Assembly (NCBI RefSeq): GCF_012222305.1
Contig: NZ_CP035730.1
Coordinates: 1,763,501-1,827,500, forward strand
Reading direction: 5' to 3'
Source: Sulfolobus sp. S-194
GTDB taxonomy: Archaea > Thermoproteota > Thermoprotei_A > Sulfolobales > Sulfolobaceae
Length of the DNA: 64,000 bases
Of this stretch, positions 31,990-39,923 are shown one piece after another. A program made the position numbers and the translations under genes. Under the pieces are notes generated by a model. It had not been told where the DNA came from, searched no databases, and saw only the letters and a program-made list of their open reading frames with translations. Within the stretch, counting starts at the first letter, position 1; each line of letters opens with the position of its first letter.

Positions 31990-32187
31990 GTGGTATCCCA
32001 GGAAGAAATTGAAAAAGCTGAAAAATACTTTAAGAATGTTGTTTCGGTGGGGGAAATCATTGCTTTGAGGGAGTTAAAAGCTTTAGGGATTAGTAATCCT
32101 GAGGAAGTAATAAGTAAACTAATGGAAATGGGAGTAATCGAAAAAGGTGAAGGATGTTACAATCTAGTACGGAAGAGAAATGAATGA
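31990..32187 (+). CDS. small winged-helix-like protein of unknown function
   Basis: This 65-residue protein, counted from GTG 31990, begins [14 protein letters not shown] and resembles a small winged helix-turn-helix: [46 protein letters not shown] 31990 is favoured because AGGTGA lies 5 nt before it; an upstream GTG at 31981 would add three residues. It is divergent from the UbiA gene with a 36-nt gap and overlaps the reductase gene by 31 nt at its end. Function unknown. Confidence 0.6.
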
Positions 32188-33080
32188 TAATCGAATTCTT
32201 CATTTACACTTACTGTTTTATCCTTCAAGAGTCTGAAAGCTAATGGCAAAACTACTCTCCACGTTTTTTCAAGAATTATTGTCAATCTAAACTGTTTATT
32301 TATCTCGTTTTTCAATTTGTTAAATTTACTTAAATGTAAAGAATTATCATTCTCATAAACTAGTCTAGGTATAGTTTCTAACATTTCTCCAATTGAAAAA
32401 ATCCCGCCTCCAGTAAATATTTTAATTAAACCTAATGTATCACCTATACCGTATTTATATTCTGGTTTAGCTCTTGGTATTGAGCCTCCATGTATGTCTA
32501 TAATTCTCTTATTTATTTTAGGGATAAATAATTTGGGGTCATAATAAGATAATGAGCCTACTAATGTCCCATAACTAAGTGGTACTATCCATCCGAAACC
32601 TGCCGGATTTCTAAGATCAAAAAATACTTCTATGCTATCACTTTCAATCGGTTCTGTTAGATATTCAATAGCTTTAATCCATTTAGCTCTTCCTTTCCAA
32701 CCAGAAGCAACAATGATTTTTCCTTCATATTTCTCGTTATTTGCAAGAAGTTTATTATTATTTTCTATTTTTACATCAGTAGATTTTTTGACTTTAAGAT
32801 TTTCTTCCAAATATTTTTCAAGTTTCAGTCTATTTAATCTTACTACATTTGTTCTAACTTCAAATGATATATCTGCATAATGAAAAATGATTTTCTTAAA
32901 GTAAGAATCAATAAATTCATTAGATATTCCTAACTTTGAAAAAGTATTATAACTTATAATACCAGTACATTTTTTTCCTAGTTCTCTTTTTCTGTCAAAT
33001 ACGATTACACTTTCATCTTTTAATTTCCATGCAGTTAGTAAACCTGCTATACCTCCACCTACTATTAGAACTCTGATGAT
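32157..33080 (-). CDS. FAD-dependent geranylgeranyl reductase-like oxidoreductase with a non-canonical start
   Basis: The frame is open from just after a TAG at 33081-33083 to the stop at 32157, about 307 residues. It opens directly with the FAD dinucleotide motif [14 protein letters not shown], then [16 protein letters not shown], as in geranylgeranyl reductases. The C-terminal part has [22 protein letters not shown], the second FAD contact. There is no ATG, GTG or TTG before codon 91 (TTG 32810), so initiation is likely at ATC 33080 or 33077, preceded by TGAGG. It overlaps speH by 16 nt. It is shorter than the 450-residue Sulfolobus GGR, so the substrate is uncertain. Confidence 0.75.
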
Positions 33081-33841: not shown

Positions 33842-34806
33842 TATGTGATGTCTGTAGAATTAGGGAAGCAGAAATTTATCAATCTCATACCGGAAGAAGA
33901 TTATGTAGGCAATGTTTCATAGAAGACATAAGAAAAAGAGTAGAAAAGGAAGCAGAAATTATAGGACTGAAAAATGCCAAGAAAATTTTACTTGCTGTAT
34001 CTGGTGGGAAAGATAGTTTTGTACTAGCCGATACTTTAGCGTCGTTTATTGATCATAATAAATTAATAGCTTATAACATAGTTGAAGGAATACATGGTTA
34101 TAATAGAAAGGATCAATTAGAACAGCTTAAGAAATTTCTCACTGATTTAGGAATCGAATTAATAGAAGATAGTTTCAAGGATAGTGTAGGATACACTTTG
34201 GACGAGATGGTTAAATCTTCTATGGAAAAAGGCTTGAATGTTTCTGCTTGTACTTTCTGTGGCGGTTTTAGAAGAAAATTAATAAATAACGCAGGTAGGA
34301 TGGTTAACGCTGACTATGTAGCTACTGGACATAATCTTGATGATGAAGTGCAATCTATAGTAATTAATTTGATTAGAGGGGATTTAATTAGGCTTATAAG
34401 ATTCGGAGATAAACCGCTTAAATTAAGTTCAAAGTTTGTACTTAGGGTAAAACCTTTAAGGAAAATATATGAATGGGAAACTACTATGTATGCCTATTAT
34501 AAAGGATATAACTTTCAAGAAGTCGAATGCCCCTATATAACTACAAGACCTACTTTAAGAGCAAAAGTTAGAGAATTGCTTTACATTTTAGAAGAGATTA
34601 AGCCTGGTTCATTATTAAATATTATTGAGGAATTTGATAGAATTTCAGAAAATGTTAGAAAAGAATACTCAACCACTTCTGAATTAAGAGAATTACCTAG
34701 ATGCAAGATATGTGGAGAGCCTACTAGTTATGGAAGAGAAATTTGTAAAAATTGTGAACTTTTAATTAAGTCTGGACTTCTTCACCAAAACTTCCCTATA
34801 TCATAG
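33838..34806 (+). CDS. tRNA 2-thiolation protein, TtuA/NcsA family
   Basis: This 322-residue ATP pyrophosphatase-family enzyme forms 2-thiouridine in tRNA. An N-terminal zinc finger uses C3, C6, C23 and C26. The PP-loop AVSGGKDS is at 53-60. The iron-sulfur/catalytic cysteines are C138 and C141 in CTFCGG and C231 in VECPY. A C-terminal zinc finger has CKICGE and CKNCEL. Family members act on U34 or U54; the sequence does not decide. It is the second gene of a pair with the DUF211 protein, and its end overlaps the adenosyltransferase gene by 25 nt. Confidence 0.92.
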
Positions 34807-35315
34807 ATTTTTTCACTTATATTTCTCCTTTTATTTGCAACTAATGCCATTGCAAATAAAAGTGATGATAATCTATTTAGATAGACTATAATCATTCGAT
34901 TAATTTCTGGTAATTCTTTAGTATATTTAACTGCATTTCTTTCAACTCTTCTTGCTACTGATCTAGTTATATGTAATACTGAGGCTTCTTCCGAACCACC
35001 TGGAATAACGAATAGTCTTACTGGTCCACTTTCTTTTCTATATTCTACAGTTCTTTCTTCCAACCATTTTACGTATTTTTCATCAATTTTCTTTTTGCTA
35101 CTTTGAGTAGAGAGATCCTCGCCTATTTCAAAAAGTTCAACTTGTACTCTTTCCAAATCTTTTTTCATATCTTCCCAAGGTATTTTTGATATTGTAAAAC
35201 CTATAAAAGAGTTCAATTCATCAAGGTCACCTAAAAAGTTAACTAAAGGAGAATCCTTCCCTAATCTTTTATTTATTACGCTAGTATTTCCATCATCACC
35301 AGATTTTGTAAACAC
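34782..35315 (-). CDS. cob(I)alamin adenosyltransferase, PduO type
   Basis: This 177-residue protein has the family's ATP-binding N-terminus [25 protein letters not shown], and [13 protein letters not shown] at about 28-40. The conserved active-site helix [25 protein letters not shown] is near 104-128. It transfers the adenosyl group of ATP to cob(I)alamin to make coenzyme B12. GTG start. It is convergent with the tRNA thiolase and divergent from leuS. Other B12 genes are absent here, though the radical SAM protein at 47033 may use cobalamin. Confidence 0.93.
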
Positions 35316-35352
35316 AACATAATTTAAATATTCGAGGTTATAAAGGTGTTTT

Positions 35353-35359
35353 GGTGATC
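35353..35359 (+). promoter_or_regulatory. strong Shine-Dalgarno site before an ATT start of leuS
   Basis: GGTGATC is complementary to seven bases at the 3' end of crenarchaeal 16S rRNA (family knowledge: the tail reads GATCACCTC). It lies 4 nt before the in-frame ATT at 35364. It thus supports ATT as the first codon of leuS, because no ATG, GTG or TTG exists between the upstream in-frame TGA at 35355-35357 and the HIGH motif. A GAGGT at 35334-35338 precedes another, abortive GTG frame. Confidence 0.6.
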
Positions 35360-35363
35360 AAGG

Positions 35364-38225
35364 ATTTCAGCAAAGGAGTTCGTTGATTTTCTAACATCAA
35401 TAGCTGAAAAATGGCAAAAAGAATGGGAAAAAGCCAAAATCTTTGAAGCAAACCCAGATAAAACGAGGAATAAATTCTTTACCACAGTTGCATTTCCATA
35501 TCCTAATTCTCCATTTCACTTAGGTCATGGAAGAACTTATGTGACCTGTGATATTTATGCAAGATATATGAGAATGAAGGGCTATAACGTACTTTTCCCC
35601 ATGGGATTTCATTATACTGGAACACCTATAATAGCTATGGCTGATGATGTAGCTAAAGGAGATAAGGAGTTAATAGATATTTTCAAAAATATATATGAAA
35701 TTCCAGATAATGTAATTTCGAAATTAGCTGATCCTCTCTTCATGGCTAACTATTTCAGAGATGAAATAAAGAAGGCTATGAGAGAAATAGGTTTGAGTAT
35801 TGATTGGAGAAGAGAATTTACGACTATAGATCCAGAGTTCTCATCATTCATAGTATGGCAGTTTAATAAGCTACAAGAGAAAGGATATATAGTCAGAGAC
35901 ACACACCCAGTTGGATGGTGTCCAGTTCATCATATTCCAGTAGGAATGCATGATACCAAAGGAGATATGGAACCCGAAATCGGCGAATTTGTGTTAATTT
36001 ATTTTAATAGTGATCTAGGAATTTTACCAGCTGCTACATTAAGGCCAGAGACAGTGTTTGGTGCTATAGGAATATGGGTAAACCCAGATGTCACATATTC
36101 TATCATAGAATTAGATGGCAAAAAGATGATTGTCAGCGAGAGGGCTGCATTCAAATTAACTTTCCAGTTTGATAATATAAAGAATTTAGGAAGTATCAAA
36201 GGTTCTGAATTAACGAAATATAAGGCAGTTAATCCAATAACTGGAAAAGAAATTCCTATAATGGCAGCTGATTTTGTTGATCCTAATGTTGCTACCGGTG
36301 TAGTGATGAGTGTCCCGGCTCATGCTCCTTTCGATTATTACTATTTAAAGAAAAATAAACAACAAGATACGCAAATAGTATCAGTTATTCAAGTTGAAGG
36401 TCAAGGGGATACTTTGGCTAAAGATTTAGTAGAGAAGATTAATCCAAAAAACAAAGATGATCTCCAAAAATTGACTGAACAAGTTTACAGAACAGAATAT
36501 AATAAAGGTAAGATGAAGGATGTAAGTTCTCTAGTAAAACTAGAATTTGTTGATTACTTTAAGTCGTTTACTGGGTTATCAGTTCCAGAGGCAAGGCAAA
36601 AAGTAACCGAGTTTTTGATAGAGAAGGGTTTAGGTAGGAAAATTTATGAAATTATGAATAGGCCAGTTTATTGTAGATGTGGTAACGAGGTTGTAGTTAA
36701 AATACTGAAGGATCAATGGTTCTTAGACTATGGTAACCCGCAATGGAAGGCTTTAGCTAAAAAATTAATTTCTAATATGAAATTTATTCCACCAGAGACA
36801 AGGAAAGATTTTGAGTTTGTCACAGATTGGTTACAAAAAAGGGCGTGTGCTAGAACAAGAGGATTAGGTACACCATTACCCTGGGATAAAAAATGGATTA
36901 TTGAAAGTTTAAGCGATTCTACTATCTATATGGCTTACTATACAATTGCACATAAAATAAGGCAATATCAATTGAAACCTTCTCAGCTTACTTATGATTT
37001 CTGGAATTATATAATGTTAGGTATTGGAAACATTGATGAGGTTTCCAGTAAAACTGGTATACCTAAAGAGATAATTAAGGAGATGAGGGATGAGTTTCTT
37101 TATTGGTATCCATTAGATATACGTCATAGTGGTAAGGACTTAATTCCTAATCACTTATCATTCTTTATATTCAATCACGCCGCAATATTCCCAGAAGAGT
37201 TATGGCCAAAGGCTATAGCAGTTAACGGTTTCGTTTTATATGAAGGAAAGAAAATGAGCAAATCACTAAGGAACATTATCCCATTAAGAAAAGCCTTAAG
37301 AATTTATAGTCCAGACGTTGTGAGAATAGCATTAACATCTACTGCGGATATGGGTTCTGATGTAAATTTTAGTGACTCTTATGCGAAATCTGTAGGAGAA
37401 ATACTAAGAAAATACTACGAATTCATCAAAGAGTTGCATAAATATAATGGTGAAGGTAATGAGTTTGCAAATAGATGGTTTAAAGCTCAAACTAATACTA
37501 TTGTACTTAATTCTACTAAGAATATGGATAATATCGATTTTAGAAGCACTATTAACGATATATTGTATTCATTTGATTCATATGTGAGAGAATATATTGA
37601 TATGTGTAGAGCTGATGGAAAAGAGCCGAACGGAAAATTATTAAGAGAAGTAATAGAGACGTGGGTAAAACTATTGGCACCTTTCGCTCCTCACTTTGCT
37701 GAAGAGATTTGGCATGACTTAGGTCATACTAATTTCATCTCATTGGAAAAATGGCCAACAGCTGAAGAATCGTCTGAGGACTTATATTATATTTTAATTC
37801 ATGAATATCATAAGAGGATAATTGAAGATTCACAAAAAATTATAAACTATTACTATAAGGGCAAACCTAATATTGTGAAAATATACGTTGCAGAACAAGA
37901 ATTAATGAAAGTATTAAGAGAAGCTGTTCAGATACTCTCTAATGGTGGTACATTAAAGCAATTAATGGAAAAAGAAAAGCCATCAGATAAGAAACTAGCT
38001 AACCTAATCAAGAAAATTTACGAACTAGCAGTAGAGTTAGATAATAGTATGAAAAAGTTGATTCTAGGTTATAATGTTAATGAGAAAGAAATCCTTGAGC
38101 TTGGAACTAAATATATGAGTTACAAGTTAGGTATACCAGTTGAAGTATATGATATTTCAAAATTAGATAAAAGTAAATATAATAAGGAAGCTTTACCTCT
38201 AAAGCCAGCTATTATTGTTGAGTAA
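35364..38225 (+). CDS. leuS: leucyl-tRNA synthetase, probable ATT start
   Basis: This class I synthetase has 953 residues if read from ATT 35364. The N-terminal segment [24 protein letters not shown] leads to the HIGH motif [11 protein letters not shown] at about 49-59, and the KMSKS loop is KKMSKSLRN near 631. A CP1 editing domain lies between, with [17 protein letters not shown]. The C-terminal anticodon domain is present. The HIGH motif is encoded upstream of the first standard start codon in frame (GTG 35541), so that start would remove catalytic residues. It overlaps the divergently read regulator-like gene by 27 nt at its 3' end. Confidence 0.93.
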
Positions 38226-38826: not shown

Positions 38827-38849
38827 TCATGAAATAAGTAGGGTTTCTT

Positions 38850-39923
38850 ATTGCACCAACCGTTGATGTTAAAAACCTTATATATCCTTGGTTAATTGAA
38901 GCAGAAGAGTATAGTTTCGAAGATATAAATGAAGGCATAAGATTGCACCTTAATGAATCCCCTTTTCCACCACCAGATTTTTTGATAGAAGAAATAAAGA
39001 AATATTTGCATTTAGGTAATAGATATCAACACCCTTCATTATTAGAAAGACTAAGAGAATTAATGGCAGAATATAACAAGGTAGAACCAAAAAATATATA
39101 TCCAACACCAGGTGGTGATGGAGCACTTAGAGCAGTATTTTATAATCTTATACAGACTGGAGACAAGGTTGTCATAAATAATCCATCTTACAGCATGTAT
39201 AAAGTATATGCTTCAGTCAGAGGGCTAAAATTAACCAGAGTGAATCTAATAGAAAATGGTAACTGGTGGAAGATGAATTTCGAAAAGTTTTTAGATGAGG
39301 CGAAAGACGCAAGATTAGTTGTAATTGATGATCCAAACAATCCTACTGGTTCGCCTATGTTAAAGTCAGAAGAAGACAAAATTAGAAATTTAGTAGAAAC
39401 TGTTAAGGGCTTTGTACTTATTGATGAGGCGTATTATGAGTTCTCTGGTTATACAGTTGCTAAACTTGTTAACAAATATCCTAACTTACTAATAGTAAGA
39501 ACACTTAGTAAGGCTTTCTCATTAGCATCCTACAGAGTAGGATATTTAATTGGGAATGAGGAGGTTATTAAGAATCTAATGAAAGGAGCAACGCCATTTG
39601 ATATTTCGCTACCAGGGTATATAGCTGGTATCACGGCCTTAGAAAATCCCTCATATGTTAGAAAAGTGGTAGAAGTAATAACCAGGAATAGAGAGTATCT
39701 CATTGAGGGTCTCAGAAAACTTGGATTAAAAGTATATAACTCTCTCACAAATTTTGTTTTTGTAAAGGATGAGAGAGATTTATTATCTCCATTACTGAAT
39801 AAGGGTGTAGCAATTAGAAAACCTACTATTGGATATTTTAGGATTAGTGTAGGTACTAAGGAACAAATTGATACTTTATTAAAATACCTGGGTGAAATAA
39901 TTGAAAATAGCAATTCCAAATAA
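38850..39923 (+). CDS. hisC: histidinol-phosphate aminotransferase, probable ATT start
   Basis: This fold-type I PLP aminotransferase has 357 residues if read from ATT 38850. The N-terminal arm is [20 protein letters not shown], and [15 protein letters not shown] follows. The PLP aspartate is in [12 protein letters not shown]. The catalytic lysine is in [20 protein letters not shown] near 218, and ISVGTKEQI lies near the end. The first standard start in frame is TTG 38943, which would cut off the arm. An in-frame ATG (38829) is followed two codons later by TAA. It overlaps hisG by 23 nt. First gene of the his operon. Confidence 0.9.

Follow-up and report, generated by a model that had tools for sequence, protein, structure and literature searches.

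The gene for the canonical leucyl-tRNA synthetase (LeuRS) of Sulfolobus sp. S-194 carries no usable ATG, GTG or TTG at its 5' end, and it is one of several genes of the Sulfolobaceae in which AUU, AUA or AUC (AUH) very probably serves as a genuine start codon. The comparison of related genomes suggests that a Shine-Dalgarno site placed at the 5' end of the mRNA would position this near-cognate codon, which appears to have been kept by selection.

In the window, by which we mean the whole 64,000-nucleotide stretch analysed, leuS occupies positions 35364–38225 of the plus strand (953 aa and the stop). A candidate TATA box, TTTAAATA (35323–35330), stands 30 nt before GGTGA, the conserved part of a Shine-Dalgarno site GGTGATC (35353–35359), and 6 nt separate GGTGA from ATT (35364–35366), the proposed start codon, whose place is taken by ATT, ATA or ATC across most of the Sulfolobaceae. 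The codons of this region read TTT TGG TGA TCA AGG ATT TCA GCA AAG GAG. The TGA (35355–35357) lies within the Shine-Dalgarno site and closes the frame upstream, and ATT is the third codon of the leuS frame counted from that opening. From the position of the TATA box, the 5' end of the mRNA is predicted to fall at GGTGA, 11–12 nt before ATT. A GTG in the leuS frame (35346–35348) is followed by two codons and then by the TGA, and the mRNA is predicted to begin downstream of this GTG. Between the TGA and the GTG at 35541–35543 the frame contains no ATG, GTG or TTG, and the use of this first standard start codon would remove the HIGH-type signature HLGH (35517–35528).

On re-reading, the places given for the TGA, ATT, GGTGATC and GTG 35346 in the original prediction were exact, as were its statements that GTG 35541 is the first standard start and that the HIGH motif precedes it. 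It had also taken the segment upstream of GTG 35541 to be part of LeuRS, and the alignments cover this segment: residue 8 of the Pyrococcus horikoshii LeuRS (1WZ2) is aligned with residue 12 of the window LeuRS onward, and position 5 of the NF008957 profile with residue 9 onward.

Two leuS paralogues are present in most Sulfolobaceae. One of them encodes LeuRS-I, which can bind tRNA and form leucyl-adenylate but is unable to aminoacylate (PMC9437257). Judged by its sequence, the window gene is the canonical LeuRS and distinct from LeuRS-I. Its translation has both signatures, HLGH and KKMSKS, its score in a profile search against TIGR00395 (leuS_arch) is 930.3 bits, above the cut-off of 648.5, and LeuRS of this type is the only one present in genomes G007, G008, G024 and G025. 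Of the four genus members, three have an ATG start in the LeuRS-I paralogue and one has a choice of GTG or TTG; the LeuRS-I gene of the window's own genome starts with ATG.

leuS starts across the Sulfolobaceae

The leuS starts were read in 30 Sulfolobaceae genomes (designated by G-numbers) of 11 genera (g1–g11). The anatomy found in the family is TATA, about 30 nt, GGTGA, 6 nt and ATH (H = A, C or T), mostly followed by TCN. The start is ATT, ATA or ATC in 8 of the 11 genera sampled, with ATT in g1, g10, g5 and g2 (where the spacing from GGTGA is 7), ATA in g7 and ATC in g11. The earliest standard start in these six genera lies well inside the protein, except in G001 and in some g7 genomes, in which a TTG stands about 14 codons 3' of ATA, inside the conserved N-terminus. 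The spacing is 5 in g6 and g8, ATT or ATA being nonetheless present; the GTG of GGTGA is in frame there, and a GUG start is therefore possible in these two genera. An ordinary ATG opens leuS in g3, g9 and G007 (g4). Conservation of AUH alone would be compatible with a conserved isoleucine, of which AUU, AUC and AUA are the codons, but the missing upstream start argues against this.

The comparison with related genomes that had been suggested in the original prediction came out in favour of ATT, which each of the four species in the genus has at the same position. A wrong base had been offered there as one of three options, together with readthrough and the AUU start. An assembly or sequencing error, or decay into a pseudogene, is now vanishingly improbable. 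No point in its favour was found, the 953-aa frame is intact and encodes the only LeuRS type of four relatives, and the same arrangement is present in independent genomes of several genera, which excludes an error of sequencing. Retention of the AUH start in so many species likewise argues against both error and chance.

Readthrough or recoding of the TGA at 35355, with initiation at GTG 35346, would agree with the in-frame order GTG TTT TGG TGA and with G001, a member of the same genus in which the TGA of the Shine-Dalgarno site is replaced by TGG and the frame runs upstream to GTG (MFWWLGISAKEF). The position of GTG 35346, however, is open to leuS only in G001. In g7 no start codon occurs between the preceding stop and the TGA, the leuS of G008 is preceded by three stops in a row (TGA TAG TAG), fen1 of g7 has TGA TAA ahead of its start, and in tbp of both g8 genomes TAA directly abuts ATA. 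Because relatives have startless upstream frames, tandem stops or a stop abutting the start, we consider readthrough excluded for practical purposes, and the AUU start is left as the sole survivor of the three options. The occurrence of the arrangement throughout the family, the restriction of the variation to AUU, AUA and AUC behind GGTGA-N6, and the similar starts of tbp, fen1 and a kinase gene had not been foreseen.

A TATA-like hexamer is found 28–31 nt before the GGTG of the start site in 26 of the 30 relatives, and the leuS mRNA is therefore predicted to begin at the Shine-Dalgarno site. The coincidence of the predicted 5' ends with GGTGA could also mean that the mRNA has in effect no leader and begins with the GUG of GGUGA, the LeuRS frame being entered directly at spacing 5 and via a +1 shift at spacing 6. 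Like the leaderless GUG mRNAs of Sulfolobales, these genes have a TATA box at a distance of about 30 nt on the 5' side and a GUG near the predicted 5' end; this GTG is in frame in leuS of g6 and g8 and in several tbp genes, and high eS26 has been reported to favour a GUG located 7 nt from the 5' end of a Shine-Dalgarno-leadered mRNA in S. solfataricus (PMC11698992). We nevertheless find such initiation unlikely in leuS, since in the species with spacing 6 the GTG and the protein are in different frames, the frame that it opens stops immediately in g7 (GTG AAG TAA) and is short in G008 (GTG ATA GTA GAT TTC TAG), no common slippery sequence was seen, and the retention of ATH at a fixed distance would be left unexplained.

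Outside the Sulfolobaceae, the N-terminus encoded by leuS is of the ATTGC type in G056, G066, G081 and G087, where standard starts in the vicinity are few or absent. This is no more than suggestive of non-standard starts; leuS of G048 may start with CTG.

Similar starts in tbp, fen1 and other genes

The start of tbp, the gene of the TATA-binding protein (TBP), is ATA, ATT or ATC in 29 of the 30 genomes read, with ATG in G007 as the exception. In g1 (three of four genomes), g7, g6 and g10, ATH follows GGTGA-N6 and at least 15 codons pass without a standard start; in g8 the next standard start is at least 20 codons into TBP. In tbp of g2, g3, g5, g9 and g11 the GTG contained in GGTG shares the reading frame of TBP, and a GUG start is therefore possible in those genera.

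For fen1, which encodes a DNA flap-cutting enzyme, starts were read by the pattern GGTGR-N6-ATH-GGN-RTN-GAY at FEN1 coordinates, and of the 29 genomes that have FEN1, 26 showed GGTGR-N6-ATH (23 ATA, 3 ATC). The same pattern with DTG (ATG, GTG or TTG) at the start codon gave no FEN1 match in these 29 genomes. The archaeal FEN1 profile TIGR03674 begins exactly at the ATH codon (1-353 to 1-338). Matches of an order-wide FEN1 pattern were mixed and not attributable to FEN1 outside the Sulfolobaceae, and that pattern was set aside. The gene of a small P-loop kinase starts with ATT in all 16 genomes matched by a pattern that had allowed any NTN, including ATG, GTG and TTG, and its next ATG falls within the Walker A motif.

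The genome-wide scan covered 2.45 Mb (88%) of the 2.79-Mb chromosome, with genes chosen by a dicodon coding score. Open reading frames that appeared coding from their opening and lacked an early standard start were compared after sorting by the preceding sequence. Of the 12 frames opening after GGTGA, among them tbp, fen1, leuS and a PIN-domain gene, 6 carry ATH at the third codon, vs 14 of the 197 opening after other stops (Fisher p = 2e-4). Genome-wide, the codons at spacing 6 after GGTGA comprise 57 ATG, 9 GTG, 16 TTG and 11 ATH, and ATG also peaks at this spacing. In single genes other codons stand exactly 6 nt after GGTGA: CTG in nadM (G000:C1:542637-543161, plus strand), kept in all four members of the genus and in two g7 genomes, and ACG in sucD (G000:C1:1480465-1481325, plus strand). 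An MFS transporter gene of this genome has CTG at the start position after GGTGA, and ORF 589773, found in this genome only, has ATA at spacing 6. We do not claim the TTA codons at spacing 6 in cobA and ileS as starts, because TTA differs from ATG at two positions and, in ileS, a standard start follows 8 codons later. No sequence was found to support a spliced upstream exon that would supply a start. With a dedicated initiator tRNA in mind, the tRNAs were inspected in 88% of the genome, where three tRNAs with a CAT anticodon and no unusual anticodon were found.

Parsimony on the LeuRS tree gives at least 3 changes among ATA, ATT and ATC in leuS, at least 6 in tbp and at least 2 in fen1, at least 11 in total; these counts are lower bounds from one tree with some open forks. 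No change to ATG occurs on this tree in tbp or fen1. The ATG of leuS in g3 and g9 fits either direction of change on the tree; from these ATG starts and from that of tbp in G007 it follows that the AUH start is either subject to loss or derived.

The free interchange of ATA, ATT and ATC, and the occurrence of CTG and ACG at spacing 6 in single genes, would also be expected if the AUH starts were real but neutral, the strong GGUGA making the third base unimportant and no regulation being involved. This possibility, which concerns the purpose of the codon and not the site of initiation, deserves to be taken seriously, although we favour it less than selection for AUH. Neutrality predicts that ATG should be frequent, and it is seen neither in fen1 nor in 29 of the 30 tbp genes, even though ATG predominates genome-wide at spacing 6 (57 ATG vs 11 ATH). 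As ATG is the rule at spacing 6 and changes to it are absent on the tree in tbp and fen1, ATH is tolerated or preferred in particular genes and is not a free alternative to ATG.

A possible mechanism and known systems

We infer that leuS is translated from AUU with methionine in the following manner. Transcription from TTTAAATA would yield an mRNA beginning at or just before GGUGAUC, with a leader of about 11–12 nt consisting mostly of the Shine-Dalgarno site. Pairing of GGUGA with the 16S rRNA 3' end would hold AUU, 6 nt further on, in the P site, where the initiator Met-tRNA could pair with two of its three bases, the mismatch at the third position being accepted. The genes tbp, fen1 and that of the P-loop kinase may be started in this way from AUU, AUA or AUC, and single genes from CUG or ACG. 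The bases preceding the CCTCA of the 16S gene are GATCA, and UCACC is complementary to GGUGA. The 16S gene of S. solfataricus ends in CCTCA and is processed to CCUCC (PMC11698992); in the 2.45 Mb (88%) of the present genome examined the 16S 3' end was not found.

The simplest explanation for selection of a non-AUG codon would be that it caps expression and makes it dependent on the stringency of start-codon choice, exerted by aIF1. In S. solfataricus aIF1 favours discrimination against non-canonical starts (PMC6237735), and the AUH genes should therefore respond to stringency. It is possible, though we put it forward only tentatively, that leuS, tbp, fen1 and the P-loop kinase gene form a translational regulon, whose near-cognate starts tie translation to the level or activity of aIF1 or to the choice between leadered and leaderless initiation. 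The eS26 experiment (PMC11698992), together with the in-frame GUG of the spacing-5 genes, suggests an alternative role as a switch between two modes of initiation, at AUH through the Shine-Dalgarno site or 5'-terminally at the GUG of GGUGA.

The Shine-Dalgarno-leadered initiation of S. solfataricus and Pyrococcus resembles the proposed mechanism in the pairing of GGUGA with the 16S 3' end and in the choice of the start by aIF1, aIF1A and aIF2, and differs from it in that here the codon is AUH and the Shine-Dalgarno site lies at the predicted 5' end. Among bacteria, the infC, recJ and pcnB genes of E. coli have AUU start codons, and for infC discrimination against AUU by an initiation factor is a known means of control. 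As in infC, the AUU of leuS stands behind a Shine-Dalgarno site, at the appropriate spacing, in an important gene to which no AUG, GUG or UUG is available, and the non-AUG start is conserved among relatives. Unlike infC, the archaeal genes give no sign of autoregulation, their products being LeuRS, TBP, FEN1 and a kinase and not aIF1, and they interchange AUU, AUA and AUC at a fixed spacing across a whole family. In a review of initiation in archaea, the start codons named are AUG, GUG and UUG (PMC7531240). We found no description of AUU, AUA or AUC starts in Sulfolobaceae in the open-licence literature, and an earlier notice by annotators or structure depositors in database entries is possible.

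Gene finders restricted to ATG, GTG and TTG would truncate or mis-start LeuRS, TBP and FEN1 across the Sulfolobaceae, with consequences for annotation, N-terminal biochemistry and cloned constructs. If the proposed reading is true, archaeal ribosomes initiate on AUU, AUA and AUC well enough to supply core proteins, and selection prefers AUH over AUG in these genes. The genetics, transcript maps and in vitro translation available for Saccharolobus and Sulfolobus make the purpose of aIF1 discrimination testable on natural mRNAs.

Neighbouring genes and other genes lacking usual starts

Divergent from leuS in the window is a gene at 34782–35315 of the minus strand, cobalamin adenosyltransferase-like by eye, with a GTG start at 35315. 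A TTTATAA box is present on the minus strand near 35338–35344, and from its position relative to this GTG the gene probably lacks a leader; the promoters of this gene and of leuS overlap. A geranylgeranyl-reductase-like gene (TIGR02032, weak; 32157–33080, minus strand) opens directly after TAG and runs for 90 codons without ATG, GTG or TTG, ATC being its sole plausible start; it is preceded by an upstream gene on the same strand. The first standard start of an aminotransferase gene, hisC-like by eye (38838–39923, plus strand), is TTG 38943; about 35 codons before it look coding, and no GGTGA site was seen.

Elsewhere in the genome, a prephenate dehydratase gene (G000:C1:536162-536989, minus strand) has 186 codons without a standard start. 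ATT ATT GAT comes right after TAG, with a TATA-like sequence, TTTATATA, about 24 nt before, and the arrangement is possibly that of a leaderless AUU start. The gene for tRNA-Ile2 agmatidine synthetase, tiaS (G000:C1:549497-550852, plus strand), which is required for the reading of AUA, has about 35 codons without a standard start and an ATT at spacing 7 after GGTGA.
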